Assembly (NCBI GenBank): GCA_020161775.1
Contig: JAIUOW010000022.1
Span: 1 to 64,000 of the forward strand
Direction of reading: 5' to 3'
DNA: 64,000 nucleotides
Origin: Pseudomonadota bacterium
Lineage (GTDB): Bacteria; Pseudomonadota; Gammaproteobacteria; Burkholderiales; Burkholderiaceae_C
A program made the position numbers and the translations under genes. Numbering within the stretch: position 1 is the first letter of the stretch; each line of letters opens with the position of its first letter. The notes under the pieces were generated by a model. That model worked only from the letters and a program-made list of their open reading frames with translations, was not told the origin of the DNA and made no database searches. Shown here piece by piece: positions 12,182-22,440 of this stretch.

Positions 12182-13648
12182 ATGGAGCAAGACAACACCC
12201 TGCCGCGCGACGGCCAGGCCATCCTGGCGCTGGCCGCACGGTCGATGTTCCAGCTGTTTTCCAGCGTCAGCCAGGGCATGTTCCTGGTGGACCGTACCGG
12301 CCGCATTGTCTGGGTCAATGACGGCTACAAACGGTTCCTGCCCGACCTGGGCTTTTCCTCGGTGGACCAGTTCGTGGGCCACATGGTCGAGGACGTGGTG
12401 CCCAACACCCAGATGCGCCGCGTGCTGGAGACCGGCCAGGCCATCCTGATCGACCTGCTGACCAACAAGGCCGGCACCTTCGTGGTCAGCCGCATCCCGC
12501 TGCGCGACGACGCCAGCGGCGAGCTGATCGGCGCCATCGGGATCGTGCTGTTTGACCACCCCGAGACCACGCTGCAGCCGCTGATCAGCAAGTTTGCCCA
12601 CCTGCAGCGCGACCTGGACGACGCACGGCGTGAGCTCGCCACGCAGCGGCGCACCAAGTACACCTTTGCCAGCTTCGTGGGTGCAAGCCCGGCGGCGGTG
12701 GAGGTCAAGCGTCAGGCGCGCCGGGCCGCGCAGTCGTCCAGCCCGGTGCTGCTGCTGGGCGAAACCGGCACCGGCAAGGAGTTGCTGGCCCATGCCATCC
12801 ACGCCGCGTCGGCGCGTGCGCGCGGCCCGCTGGTCAGCGTGAACATCGCCGCCGTGCCCGACACGCTGCTGGAGGCGGAATTTTTCGGCGTGGCCCCGGG
12901 CGCCTACACCGGCGCCGACCGCAAGGGCCGCGACGGCAAGTTCAAGCTGGCCGATGGCGGCACGCTGTTCCTGGACGAAATTGGCGACATGCCCCAGGCC
13001 CTGCAGGCCAAGCTGCTGCGCGCGCTGCAGGAAGGCGAGATAGAGCCGCTGGGCTCCAACAAGCTGGTGCCGTTTGATGCGCGCGTGATTGCCGCCACCT
13101 CGCGCGACCTGGGCGCGCTGGTGCGCGAGGGCCGGTTCCGTGAAGACCTTTACTACCGCCTGAACGTGCTGCCCATCCGCGTGCCGCCGCTGCGCGAGCG
13201 GCGCGGCGACATTGCCGCGCTGGTGGAGGTGCTGGGCGAAGACATGGCCCACCGCAGCGGCTCGGCCCCGCCAGAGCTGAGCCCCGAGGCGCTGGCGCTG
13301 CTGCAGGCGCAGGTCTGGCGCGGCAACATCCGCGAGCTGCGCAATGTGCTGGAGCAGGCCGCCATGCGCAGCGATTCGCAGCACATTGAAACCGCCGTCC
13401 TCGAAGAAGTGCTGCGCGAGTCCGGCGTCAAGCAGATCGCACCGGCGCGCTGGCCTGAAATGGCCGGGCAGCCTGCGGCGGCATCACCGGACGCCGTGCT
13501 GCGCCCCCTGGCGCAACAGGTGGCCGAGCTGGAGCAGCGTGCCATTGAGGCCGCCCTGGCCAGCACCGGCGGCAACAAGGTGGCGGCCGCCAAACTGCTG
13601 GGCATCTCGCGCGCCAAGCTGTATGAGCGGCTGGATGTAATTGCCTGA
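12182..13648 (+). CDS. sigma-54 dependent Fis-family activator with PAS sensor domain
   Basis: The 488-residue protein has an N-terminal PAS-like domain (about 20-125, GMFLVDRTGRIVWVNDGYKR), a coiled linker (about 135-158), an AAA+ domain (about 163-390) with Walker A GETGTGKE (193-200), the sigma-54 contact loop as GAYTGA (240-245) instead of GAFTGA, Walker B LFLDEIGD (262-269), and a Fis-type HTH at the C-terminus (NKVAAAKLLGISRAKLYERL). Such proteins are enhancer-binding activators controlled by ligand or signal binding to the PAS domain. Three repeated 17-bp sites and a -24/-12 promoter follow at once, so it very likely activates the downstream uptake/depolymerase genes. The ligand is unknown. 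Confidence 0.93.
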   Translation: MEQDNTLPRDGQAILALAARSMFQLFSSVSQGMFLVDRTGRIVWVNDGYKRFLPDLGFSSVDQFVGHMVEDVVPNTQMRRVLETGQAILIDLLTNKAGTFVVSRIPLRDDASGELIGAIGIVLFDHPETTLQPLISKFAHLQRDLDDARRELATQRRTKYTFASFVGASPAAVEVKRQARRAAQSSSPVLLLGETGTGKELLAHAIHAASARARGPLVSVNIAAVPDTLLEAEFFGVAPGAYTGADRKGRDGKFKLADGGTLFLDEIGDMPQALQAKLLRALQEGEIEPLGSNKLVPFDARVIAATSRDLGALVREGRFREDLYYRLNVLPIRVPPLRERRGDIAALVEVLGEDMAHRSGSAPPELSPEALALLQAQVWRGNIRELRNVLEQAAMRSDSQHIETAVLEEVLRESGVKQIAPARWPEMAGQPAAASPDAVLRPLAQQVAELEQRAIEAALASTGGNKVAAAKLLGISRAKLYERLDVIA

Positions 13649-13701
13649 AATTCAGACAATGCCTTAAAATCAGACATTTCAATGTGTCTGAATTTCAGGC
13701 A
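13642..13701 (+). promoter_or_regulatory. three 17-bp upstream activator sites
   Basis: Site 1 is TGCCTGAAATTCAGACA (13642-13658, overlapping the stop codon of the activator gene). Site 2 is TGCCTTAAAATCAGACA (13660-13676), two mismatches from site 1. Site 3 is TGTCTGAATTTCAGGCA (13685-13701), the exact reverse complement of site 1. Each is itself a near-palindrome. They lie about 50-110 bases upstream of a sigma-54 promoter, the right range for enhancer sites of the adjacent Fis-family activator. Confidence 0.8.
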
Positions 13702-13751
13702 TATCAACGGCAAGACTTTAAAAAGTCCAGCGAAATCAATACCTTACAACC

Positions 13752-13767
13752 TGGCACGCACTGTGCA
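13752..13767 (+). promoter_or_regulatory. sigma-54 (-24/-12) promoter
   Basis: TGGCACG at 13752-13758, four bases, then GTGCA at 13763-13767 matches the TGGCACG-N4-TTGCA consensus with one mismatch. The GG and GC doublets have the obligatory 10-base spacing. Transcription should begin near 13778, leaving a leader of about 37 bases with AACAGGAG before the binding-protein ATG. Confidence 0.85.
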
Positions 13768-13814
13768 ATAGTGGTGCGACCGTTTTCGCGTTCCCATTAC
13801 AACAGGAGACTTCC

Positions 13815-20334: not shown

Positions 20335-20347
20335 CTGGAGACAAGCC

Positions 20348-21481
20348 ATGACATTCTGGAAATCACTGGGTACCTGCGTGCTGGCCTCGCTGGCGCTGGT
20401 CATGCCCGCCGCCAAGGCGCAGGACATCGTGGTCGGGCAGGTTGCGCCGCTGTCGGGCGTGCTGGCCAGCACCGGCGCGCAGATGGTGCTGGGCGGTCGC
20501 ATCTACTTTGACCACATCAACAGCAAAGGCGGCATCCACGGCGCGAAGATCCGCCAGGTGGTGATGGACGATGCCTACAAGGTCGATGAAACCGTGCGCC
20601 TGACCCAGGAACTGTTGGCCCGGCCCGAGGTGGTGGCGCTGTACGGCTTTGCCGGGACCGCCAACGTGGGCAAGCTGCTGGCCGATGGCGTGCTGGAGCA
20701 GGGCGGGGCGGCGCTGGTGGCGCCCTACACCGGTGGCGAGCCGCTGCGCAGTCCGTTCAACCCCTGGATCTACCACGTGCGCGCGGGCTACGCGGACGAG
20801 GCCGAGCACATGGTGCAGCAGGTCACCACACTGGGCATGAACCGCGTGGCCGTGATGTACCAGGACGACGGCTTTGGCAAGGCCGGCCTGGTGGGCGTGG
20901 AGGCAGCGCTGGCCAAGCGCGGGCTGAAGCTGACCGTGGCGGCCGGCTACGAGCGCAACACCGACAAGGTGGACGACGCCGTGAAGAAGATCAAGGCGTC
21001 CGATGCGCAGGCGATCATCATGATCTCCATCAACAAGCCCACGGCTGCGTTCATCAAGCGCTACCGCGAGTCGGGTGGCGGCGCGCAGCTGTACAACATC
21101 TCGGTGGTGGACCCGGCGGAGCTGGTCAAGCTGGCGGGCCTGAAGAACGCGCATGGCCTGGGCATCAGCCAGGTGGTGCCGTACCCCTACATGCCCAACC
21201 TGCCTGTGATCCGTGAATACCAGGCGCTGCTGGCCAAACATGCGCCCAACGAACTGGTGAACTACACGAGCTTCGAGCAGTTCCTGGGGGCCAAGGTGCT
21301 GGTGGAGGCGCTGCGCCGCGCCGGCCCCAAGCCCACGCGCGCCAAGGTGGCAAAGGCCCTGGAAACACTGGGCGCCTACGACCTGGGCGGCGTGACGGTC
21401 AATTACTCGCCCGACAACCGGGTGGGGTCGCGTTACGTGGAAGTGACCGTCATCGGCAGCACCGGCAAGCTGCTGAAGTAA
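20348..21481 (+). CDS. second Liv-type substrate-binding protein of the locus
   Basis: The 377-residue periplasmic protein has a signal peptide (MTFWKSLGTCVLASLALVMP, cleavage near AKAQ) and a Peripla_BP_6 fold starting DIVVGQVAPLSGVLASTGAQ, with YGFAGTANVGKLLADGVLEQ and YQDDGFGKAGLVGVEAALAK later. It is clearly different in sequence from the first binding protein, so the single LivGFHM-type channel may accept two ligands. It is co-transcribed with livM (CTGGAG ribosome site, 13-base gap) and precedes the alpha/beta hydrolase gene by 65 bases. Confidence 0.9.
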   Translation: MTFWKSLGTCVLASLALVMPAAKAQDIVVGQVAPLSGVLASTGAQMVLGGRIYFDHINSKGGIHGAKIRQVVMDDAYKVDETVRLTQELLARPEVVALYGFAGTANVGKLLADGVLEQGGAALVAPYTGGEPLRSPFNPWIYHVRAGYADEAEHMVQQVTTLGMNRVAVMYQDDGFGKAGLVGVEAALAKRGLKLTVAAGYERNTDKVDDAVKKIKASDAQAIIMISINKPTAAFIKRYRESGGGAQLYNISVVDPAELVKLAGLKNAHGLGISQVVPYPYMPNLPVIREYQALLAKHAPNELVNYTSFEQFLGAKVLVEALRRAGPKPTRAKVAKALETLGAYDLGGVTVNYSPDNRVGSRYVEVTVIGSTGKLLK

Positions 21482-21546
21482 CGGCGCGCGCCCGTGTACG
21501 GCACAAGCACAAGAACAAACACAACAGCAAAGCGGAGGCACACGCC

Positions 21547-22440
21547 ATGACCTGCACATCCAGCTACGCGACCTGCGCAGGCCGCGAGATCCACTACACC
21601 GAATGGGGCGCCCAGCACGGGCGCACCGTGATCGCCTGGCATGGCCTGGCCCGCACCGGGCGCGACATGGACGAACTGGCCGCGCACATGGCCGGGCGTG
21701 GCTGGCGCGTGATCTGCCCCGACACCATTGGCCGCGGCCTGAGCCAGTGGGCGGCGGACCCGCACGACGAATACCGGCTGGCGTTTTACGCGCGCATCGC
21801 GGCCGACCTGATGGACCGGCTGCATGTGGATGAAGCCCATTGGGTGGGTACGTCCATGGGCGGCGCCATTGGTACCGTGTGTGCGGCCGGCTTGCTGCAG
21901 CCCCAGCTCAAGGGCCGCATCAAGAGCCTGGTGCTCAATGACAATGCGCCCAAGCTGGCCGCGCCCGCGGTGGAGCGGATCAAGGCCTACGCAGGCAACC
22001 CGCCCGCGTTCGCCACCATTGCCGAGCTGGAGGCCTTTTTCCGTCAGGTGTACAAGCCCTACGGGTTTCTGACCGACGCGCAATGGCGCCGGCTGACCGA
22101 AACCTCCACGCGCCGCCTGCCCGATGGCCGCGTGACGCCGCATTACGACCCGGCCATGGTGCGCCAGTTCATCGACCACCCGGCCGACTACGACCTGTGG
22201 GAGCACTACGACGCGCTTGAGATTCCCGTGCTTTGCCTGCGTGGCGAGGACTCGGACCTCGTGCTGTCAGAGACCACCGACGAAATGCGCCGCCGGGGGC
22301 CGGGCGCGCGCGGCCTGGCCCATGTGATCGAAGTGCCCGGCTGCGGCCATGCGCCAGCCCTGAACGTGAGCGCGCAGCTGGACGCGGTGTCAGGCTTTAT
22401 TGAATCGGTCTGCGAGCGCGAGCTGCTGTCCAATCACTGA
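21547..22440 (+). CDS. alpha/beta-fold hydrolase
   Basis: The 297-residue cytoplasmic enzyme lacks a signal peptide. It has the alpha/beta hydrolase elements: oxyanion WHGLARTG (H32-G33), nucleophile elbow GTSMGG (S103), an acid in the [11 protein letters not shown] strand end, and the catalytic histidine in GCGHAPALN. Substrate cannot be deduced; esterase, C-C hydrolase or thioesterase-type activities are possible. As the last gene of the liv-type operon (CGGAGG ribosome site), it may process the imported compound; hydrolysis of short hydroxybutyrate oligomers would fit the nearby depolymerase. Its end overlaps the hemH end by 7 bases. Confidence 0.82.

Follow-up and report, generated by a model that had tools for sequence, protein, structure and literature searches.

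Transporters of the Liv type (HAAT family) are usually annotated for branched-chain amino acids, and the described systems LivJ-LivHMGF, UrtABCDE, and the aromatic-acid importers of Rhodopseudomonas share their subunit families with the importer considered here. This importer is encoded at positions 12182-22440 of a 64,000-nucleotide stretch of a Burkholderiaceae_C genome (contig JAIUOW010000022.1; hereafter, the window), where its genes form an operon together with a gene for a depolymerase of poly(3-hydroxybutyrate) (PHB). We consider it probable that the locus is a PHB-scavenging operon switched by sigma-54, whose Liv-type ATP-binding cassette (ABC) importer would take up 3-hydroxybutyrate (3HB) and/or its short oligomers. 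The component families are all known; what the literature searched does not contain is their combination and the proposed substrate.

Several described systems resemble parts of this locus. In C. necator, PhaY1 (H16_A2251) and PhaY2 (H16_A1335) are reported as D-(-)-3HB oligomer hydrolases in the accessible part of PMC3430594, and the identity of PhaY2 with H16_A1335 is also given in that of PMC3734047; in A. lata, excerpts of PMC11767486 list the PhaY2 counterpart as an alpha/beta hydrolase and the PhaY1 counterpart as a 3-hydroxybutyrate oligomer hydrolase protein. According to the available portions of PMC10482368 and PMC8657755, 3HB utilization in Pseudomonas is controlled by HbcR (PA2005), an RpoN-dependent activator that answers to (R)-3HB. 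TphC is a solute-binding protein (SBP) for the uptake of terephthalate from the breakdown of poly(ethylene terephthalate) (PMC8556258, in excerpt); it thus exemplifies the SBP-dependent uptake of a polyester monomer, as is also proposed here, with a different ligand. No ABC importer has been assigned to 3HB or its oligomers in the literature searched, which was largely that outside subscription journals, and the accessible parts of PMC11362209 and PMC12542648 contain nothing on 3HB uptake.

Gene content of the operon

The nine genes of the operon all lie on the plus strand in the order REG, SBP1, PHAZ, LivG, LivF, LivH, LivM, SBP2, and HYD, with consecutive spacings of 166, 146, 39, 58, -4, 11, 13, and 65 bp. 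Profile matches support the identity of each of them, and every gene that the initial annotation had placed in one directional run is found where it was said to be. REG (12182..13648) encodes a sigma-54 activator of 488 amino acids, in which profiles recognize PAS, AAA+, and Fis-type helix-turn-helix (HTH) domains and whose translation contains the GAYTGA motif. SBP1 (13815..15011) and SBP2 (20348..21481) are Peripla_BP_6 proteins whose nearest solved structures are 3n0x/3nnd and 3lop, respectively. Two ABC ATPases, of the LivG (16709..17479) and LivF (17538..18263) types, and two BPD_transp_2 permeases, of the LivH (18260..19243) and LivM (19255..20334) types, were likewise identified by profiles and complete the set of parts of a Liv/HAAT importer. 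Compared with the described importers of this group, the set has two different SBPs, and its subunits stay under the cut-offs of all NCBIfam models listed for them (models of urea, branched-chain, and other ABC transporters). The last gene, HYD (21547..22440), encodes an alpha/beta hydrolase of cytoplasmic type that matches Abhydrolase_1.

PHAZ (15158..16669) scores 380 bits against NF050059, the NCBIfam model of type 2 extracellular short-chain-length polyhydroxyalkanoate (PHA) depolymerases (cut-off 280), and aligns with the solved PHB depolymerase 2d80 across the entire catalytic domain. This full domain is common to PHAZ and the type 2 enzymes (NF050059; PDB 2d80/2d81), and PHAZ also has an fn3 segment detected by profile. 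In the alignment with 2d80, the lipase-box region (GLSSGG) is conserved, as are two further blocks, SDTTVG and HTFPTDF, and we take the three to carry the catalytic serine, aspartate, and histidine, respectively. The N-terminus appears signal-like, by which the enzyme is predicted to be secreted, and the C-terminal segment is probably a polymer-binding domain. In contrast to the described type 2 depolymerases, PHAZ has its gene among those of an ABC importer, in an operon with a sigma-54 promoter. A search of the same genome with PF10503 (Esterase_PHB) gave no match, because this type 2 enzyme reaches 20 bits where the model requires 23; PHAZ searches used the protein itself and NF050059 in place of that model. 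A plasmid search with PHAZ returned 34 records, every one below 60% identity.

Linkage to PHB enzymes

Homologues were sought in 150 genomes of the window's family by whole-genome searches that score the best candidates per genome, so that the counts are lower bounds. PHAZ (E 1e-40 or better) was found at 31 places in 30 genomes; at 20 of these places an SBP1 orthologue lies 55-236 bp away, with SBP1 first in all 20 maps. Proteins in this slot are 36-84% identical to the PHAZ of the window (65-91% for the adjoining LivG), and even the divergent ones of L160 and L172 pass the type 2 model. The second PHB enzyme associated with the transporter is a 3HB-oligomer hydrolase (3HBOH, PF10605; five examples score 925-1078 bits), which exceeds the cut-off at 45 places in 44 genomes. 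It is located within 12 kb of SBP1 or HYD at 28 of the 45 places: 19 lie 11-328 bp from HYD, 8 lie at 1.2-1.4 kb with SBP2 in between, and the remaining one is near SBP1 at a contig end. These counts exclude PF10605 fragments in G133 (C1:3577673), G138, G074, G052 (C51, two rows), G118 (C220), and G086; the rows of G104 were reduced to one, and those of G027 were merged into one broken gene, a fragmented 3HBOH next to HYD (C51:8694-9734).

The linkage of PHAZ with SBP1 is far beyond chance. PHAZ or 3HBOH lies within 6 kb of 35 of the 88 SBP1 places, compared with none of 119 paralogous Liv-type SBPs of the same genomes (SBP matches of at most 42% identity); within 12 kb the values are 35/88 and 1/119, and the single control (in G063) is near PHAZ and its cassette. 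Both enzymes accompany the cassette in 12 of the 85 genomes with SBP1, PHAZ alone in 8, including the window's, and 3HBOH alone in 13. At the level of genomes, PHAZ and 3HBOH are enriched where SBP1 is present (Fisher p 0.014 and 0.003, kinship ignored). When presence is mapped onto a tree built from the transporters of 105 distinct loci, no fewer than 10 changes are needed for PHAZ (14 loci) and no fewer than 14 for 3HBOH (27 loci); the association has therefore arisen, or been retained and lost, on many occasions. The synteny test put forward in the initial annotation, namely whether relatives keep the depolymerase next to the transporter, thus comes out in favor of linkage in many genera. 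It is very improbable that the transporter simply imports branched-chain amino acids or amides and lies beside a depolymerase by chance: the family-level annotation and the NCBIfam matches mentioned above (those listed being under cut-off) would fit such a transporter, but the linkage recurs across many genera and is absent from the 6-kb surroundings of all 119 controls.

Other arrangements were also noted. In L239 (G139:C27), PHAZ adjoins 3HBOH with no transporter cassette nearby, and in L240/L101 (G142:C42), 3HBOH, a second Liv set (32-40% identical to that of the window), and an SBP2 orthologue occur together, apart from the SBP1 cassette of the same genome. SBP1 is duplicated in tandem ahead of PHAZ in L128, L130, and L146. 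A carboxylesterase (PF00135) occupies the 3HBOH slot in L107 (5737-7476) and L187 (5080-6756), and L192 has a similar unprofiled protein; possibly, another polyester or oligoester serves as food there.

The core cassette and its distant homologues

Gene maps were made of 39 fetched regions (40 less L132, a 1-kb stretch) and of 80 named loci, the best 80 of 573 confirmed. The constant unit is SBP1-LivG-LivF-LivH-LivM-HYD, often with REG ahead. SBP1 orthologues occupy 88 places in 85 of the 150 family genomes, all but one with at least 67% identity. HYD orthologues occupy 83 places in 82 genomes (at least 62% identity, rows below this being excluded; more matches exist than those listed), and 74 of these 83 places are within 12 kb of SBP1. 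Two of the named loci (L166 and L167) have no called genes; among the other 78 of the best 80 of 573, all with a called SBP1, REG is present in 54 and SBP2 in 7, and HYD is found in 55 of the 58 named loci with more than 8.5 kb of downstream DNA. The genera represented include Acidovorax, Polaromonas, Hydrogenophaga, Rhodoferax, Limnohabitans, Ramlibacter, Curvibacter, Rubrivivax, and Ideonella; one of the named loci, L139 of Acidovorax sp. GW101-3H11, has the full set. The initial annotation had presented the depolymerase and two binding proteins as members of the locus. All three are indeed present, and the depolymerase is linked; however, PHAZ is a facultative addition to a core cassette of wider occurrence, and SBP2 is a rarer optional part. 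As 53 of the 88 SBP1 places are without both PHB enzymes, the transporter would also serve genomes that have no depolymerase.

A search of 349 genomes from the phylum gave SBP1 relatives with E 1e-90 or better in 20, of which 13 do not belong to the window's family, and in 8 of these 13 a gene related to short-chain acids or oligomers lies beside the transporter. In L244, which belongs to another order, a 3HB dehydrogenase gene directly follows LivM on its 3' side (NF009931, 357 bits against a cut-off of 340; NF009093, 337 against 258; TIGR01963, 306.9, under 307.05). A coenzyme A (CoA)-transferase gene lies between a REG homologue and SBP1 in L250, an acyl-CoA synthetase gene and 3HBOH follow LivM in L243, and acyl-CoA synthetase genes are near the transporter in L249 and L252, the latter also with an enoyl-CoA hydratase gene. 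HYD homologues are present in L242 (34%), L251 (55%), and L253 (48%). The linkage in the family, the 3HBOH of relatives, and the dehydrogenase and CoA-transferase of distant homologues therefore support the suggestion, made before this analysis, that the importer may handle products of hydroxybutyrate polymers.

Clues to the ligand

SBP1 is closely related to two solved proteins of R. palustris, 3n0x and 3nnd (E 8.7e-158 and 2.7e-149), whose titles refer to a branched-chain amino acid or ABC transporter and name no ligand. In this, and in its linkage to PHB enzymes in relatives, the importer type of the window differs from the described Liv/HAAT systems. A literature search for the ligand of 3n0x/3nnd found none, and the main text of an R. 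palustris SBP screen (PMC3223731) contains neither "hydroxybutyr" nor "4397". An AlphaFold model of SBP1 (13 close rows, mean pLDDT, the predicted local distance difference test, 63.7) served solely to list structural neighbors, and 3n0x was also found by sequence, independently of the model. The lower-ranked neighbors include binders of amino acids, urea, or amides. In E. coli LivJ, Glu226 is presumably the residue that holds the ammonium group of the ligand; the corresponding position, read by hand from weak profile alignments (25% and 22% identity), is Ile260 in SBP1 and Ser252 in SBP2, each invariant in its alignment. Given the weakness of the LivJ alignment, the lack of an acidic residue leans slightly against an amino acid ligand.

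SBP2 (at least 67% identity) was found at 13 places in the family genomes, 8 of them within 3 kb of 3HBOH, and the window itself carries SBP2 without 3HBOH. A rule that SBP2 goes with 3HBOH was rejected, as 5 of the 7 named SBP2 loci, all five from Polaromonas, have neither PHAZ nor 3HBOH.

A number of observations weigh against hydroxybutyrate products as the substrate. The operon of the window contains no gene for 3HB dehydrogenase or CoA activation, and a PF10605 search of its genome gave no 3HBOH over the cut-off. Neither PHAZ nor 3HBOH lies within 12 kb of 53 of the 88 SBP1 places; PHAZ is present in 8 and 3HBOH in 9 of the 78 named loci with SBP1 (from the best 80 of 573), and, conversely, PHAZ at 11 of its 31 places and 3HBOH at 17 of its 45 lie away from the cassette. 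The two enzymes show no significant co-variation on the transporter tree (independent pairs, median p 0.69). Among the 13 distant genomes, no short-chain acid or oligomer gene was noticed beside the transporter in G183, G215, G262, G425, and G478, some of whose neighboring genes were unprofiled. Finally, the top-ranked liganded relatives of SBP1 (4eyg, 4ey3, and 4evq; 21-28% identity) bind aromatic acids.

The cassettes without either PHB enzyme, and the aromatic-acid SBPs among the structural neighbors of SBP1, would suit a core importer for a broader or other set of carboxylates, such as aromatic acids, short-chain hydroxy or keto acids, or ester dimers of other acids. PHAZ and 3HBOH would then have come repeatedly under its regulator only as the operon is a convenient starvation-induced unit for carbon scavenging, and the carboxylesterase in the 3HBOH slot of L107 and L187, together with the acyl-CoA synthetase of L249 and L252 and the enoyl-CoA hydratase of L252, would point in the same direction. 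We regard such a broader specificity as unlikely, since two PHB enzymes and, in another order, a 3HB dehydrogenase converge on this transporter, none of the 119 controls has PHAZ or 3HBOH within 6 kb, and HYD groups with a hydrolase that is linked to 3HB dehydrogenase.

HYD and the proposed import of oligomers

HYD is probably cytoplasmic, because its N-terminus has no signal-like segment. The genome of the window encodes one other HYD match at E 1e-40 or better (38-41% identity); in direct comparison, the two proteins are 38% identical (E 2e-52), and GTSMGG, SDL, and GHAP occur in both. The paralogue gene adjoins a 3HB dehydrogenase gene (TIGR01963, 355 bits against 307), followed by a RelA/SpoT gene and PhaR. 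It is adjacent to 3HB dehydrogenase in 18 of 20 family genomes, which were picked by hand rather than at random; the two misses are L282 (no dehydrogenase) and L283 (hydrolase uncalled). Proximity to 3HB dehydrogenase and RelA is a PhaY2-like setting: H16_A1334, the neighbor of PhaY2 (CAJ92475.1), is presumably a 3HB dehydrogenase, and PhaY1 we take to be a PF10605 protein. By this synteny rather than by alignment, the paralogue has the setting expected of PhaY2. HYD differs from PhaY2 in its linkage to a transporter, and its kinship runs through the paralogue, to which it is 38% identical, not through an alignment with PhaY2 itself. Owing to this kinship, we regard HYD as most likely a relative of PhaY2 dedicated to the transporter and predict that it cleaves oligomers, in keeping with the earlier proposal that it splits them inside the cell.

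Whether oligomers are imported, and not just the monomer, is a question within the proposal of 3HB uptake. A less probable variant of that proposal, which falls inside the likelihood we assign to it and does not compete with it, is that the importer takes monomeric (R)-3HB only, HYD acting on oligomers from internally stored PHB or on another ester. The 3HBOH of relatives (L129, L096, L134, and L118) start with a lipobox-like segment (LAGC or similar), so oligomers may be finished outside the cytoplasm, and the paralogue of HYD is located among general PHB genes; both observations would agree with monomer import. On the other hand, HYD stays with the transporter in the absence of PHAZ and 3HBOH (74 of 83 HYD places are near SBP1), and the PF10605 search gave no 3HBOH for the genome of the window. 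Because HYD remains in the core when PHAZ is absent, the import of oligomers appears to be the likelier form of 3HB-product uptake.

Regulation of the operon

A -24/-12 sigma-54 promoter, TGGCACGCACTGTGCA (13752..13767, + strand), precedes SBP1. A consensus scan of the window with at most one mismatch gave 3 matches against 5.5 expected, so a single match is not significant; the site is judged significant because it is conserved upstream of SBP1 in related loci. Near-consensus sites (score 6-7 of 7) precede the SBP1 gene in 72 of 85 cases where the locus has a REG homologue, against 0.8 expected from shuffles, and in 21 of 38 cases where no REG is in view (0.6 expected); in these counts, as in those of half-sites below, the loci are related by descent and are not independent events. 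Among distant homologues, the score is 3-4 in nine loci (L242-L245, L247, L249, L251, L253, and L255), 1 in L250, and 6 in L246 and L254, and L243 has a TetR-family neighbor instead.

Two exact copies of a 17-bp palindrome, TGYCTGAANTTCAGRCA, are predicted operators; the first (13642..13658) overlaps the REG stop codon, the second lies at 13685..13701, and a degenerate copy with 2 mismatches is found between them (13660..13676). Exact copies occur nowhere else in the 4.36-Mb genome, and of five sites with at most 2 mismatches three are here; reversing the pattern as a control gives two sites. In 66 regions upstream of SBP1, the half-site TG(T/C)CTGAA occurs 46 times between REG and SBP1 against 1.5 expected, an enrichment that is partly circular, since it was in these regions that the motif had been spotted; the genome-wide uniqueness is not circular. 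REG has the features of a sigma-54 enhancer-binding protein, namely an AAA+ domain and a Fis HTH, together with a -24/-12 promoter that has palindromes upstream of it, and it seems to be an activator dedicated to a single promoter. It resembles HbcR in type, as a sigma-54 activator, and its role in 3HB use is proposed.

Among 229 genomes of the class, REG relatives of 50-56% identity were found outside the family at four places in three genomes. TRAP-type (tripartite ATP-independent periplasmic) transporter genes adjoin three of these places, the permease of L263 alone being profiled; L263 also has a CoA-transferase gene, and in L264 a 3HB dehydrogenase gene lies about 2 kb away. The fourth place (L266) has genes for an acyl-CoA synthetase and a 3-ketoacyl reductase. 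Diguanylate cyclase genes occur near REG or SBP1 in L110 (2860-4398, GGDEF) and L246 (5368-7104, GGDEF-EAL).

A terminator-like hairpin, GGGGCGGCCGCCCC, followed by TCTTTTT, lies in the gap between SBP1 and PHAZ (15059..15072, + strand) and is a possible attenuator; such sites number 14 in the region against 8.1 expected, so that one is weak when taken alone. A scan for sigma-70 promoters and terminators gave nothing decisive.

Neighboring genes

Just 5' of REG, positions 7287-11153 contain a gene for a TctD-like response regulator (- strand; TctD is its best match, under cut-off) and a TctC/TctB/TctA-like set named from translations. Of the 62 named loci with more than 5.5 kb of upstream DNA, 28 have a TctC homologue (at least 60% identity) within 12 kb of SBP1 and on the same strand. 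In L241 (G004:C1:2819000-2838900), 3HBOH is located directly 3' of a TctCBA-like set whose TctC is 80% identical to that of the window, and the G004 genome has no SBP1 match; this arrangement hints that the TctCBA-like transporter may also serve PHB products. The TphC transporter belongs to the tripartite tricarboxylate transporter (TTT) class, and it is a TctCBA-like set that lies just upstream of the operon. On the other side, as judged from translations, an apparent ferrochelatase gene (22434-23537, - strand) runs toward HYD and shares 7 bp with its 3' end, and two squalene/phytoene-synthase-like genes (24252-26142) lie beyond it.

Proposed pathway and significance

In the pathway that we propose, REG would bind the two 17-bp palindromes and, upon activation by a 3HB signal or starvation, fire the sigma-54 promoter ahead of SBP1. 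PHAZ would be secreted and cut PHB into 3HB monomers and short oligomers, which SBP1 (and SBP2) would capture in the periplasm and LivHMGF would import at the expense of ATP. HYD, as a PhaY2-like esterase, would then split the imported oligomers into (R)-3HB, which could be oxidized by the 3HB dehydrogenase encoded elsewhere in the genome.

If this is true, a Liv-type transporter would be an importer of PHB products in many Comamonadaceae, the cassette would offer a genetic marker that tells bioplastic eaters from mere scavengers, and the solved structures 3n0x and 3nnd would gain a testable function. We also put forward, tentatively, the bolder idea that short 3HB oligomers are taken up by the cassette and cleaved in the cytoplasm only, which would make it the first importer of the ABC class for oligomers of a polyester. 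Given the wide occurrence of the cassette without a depolymerase, many Comamonadaceae would then be cheaters that live off PHB oligomers freed by others.

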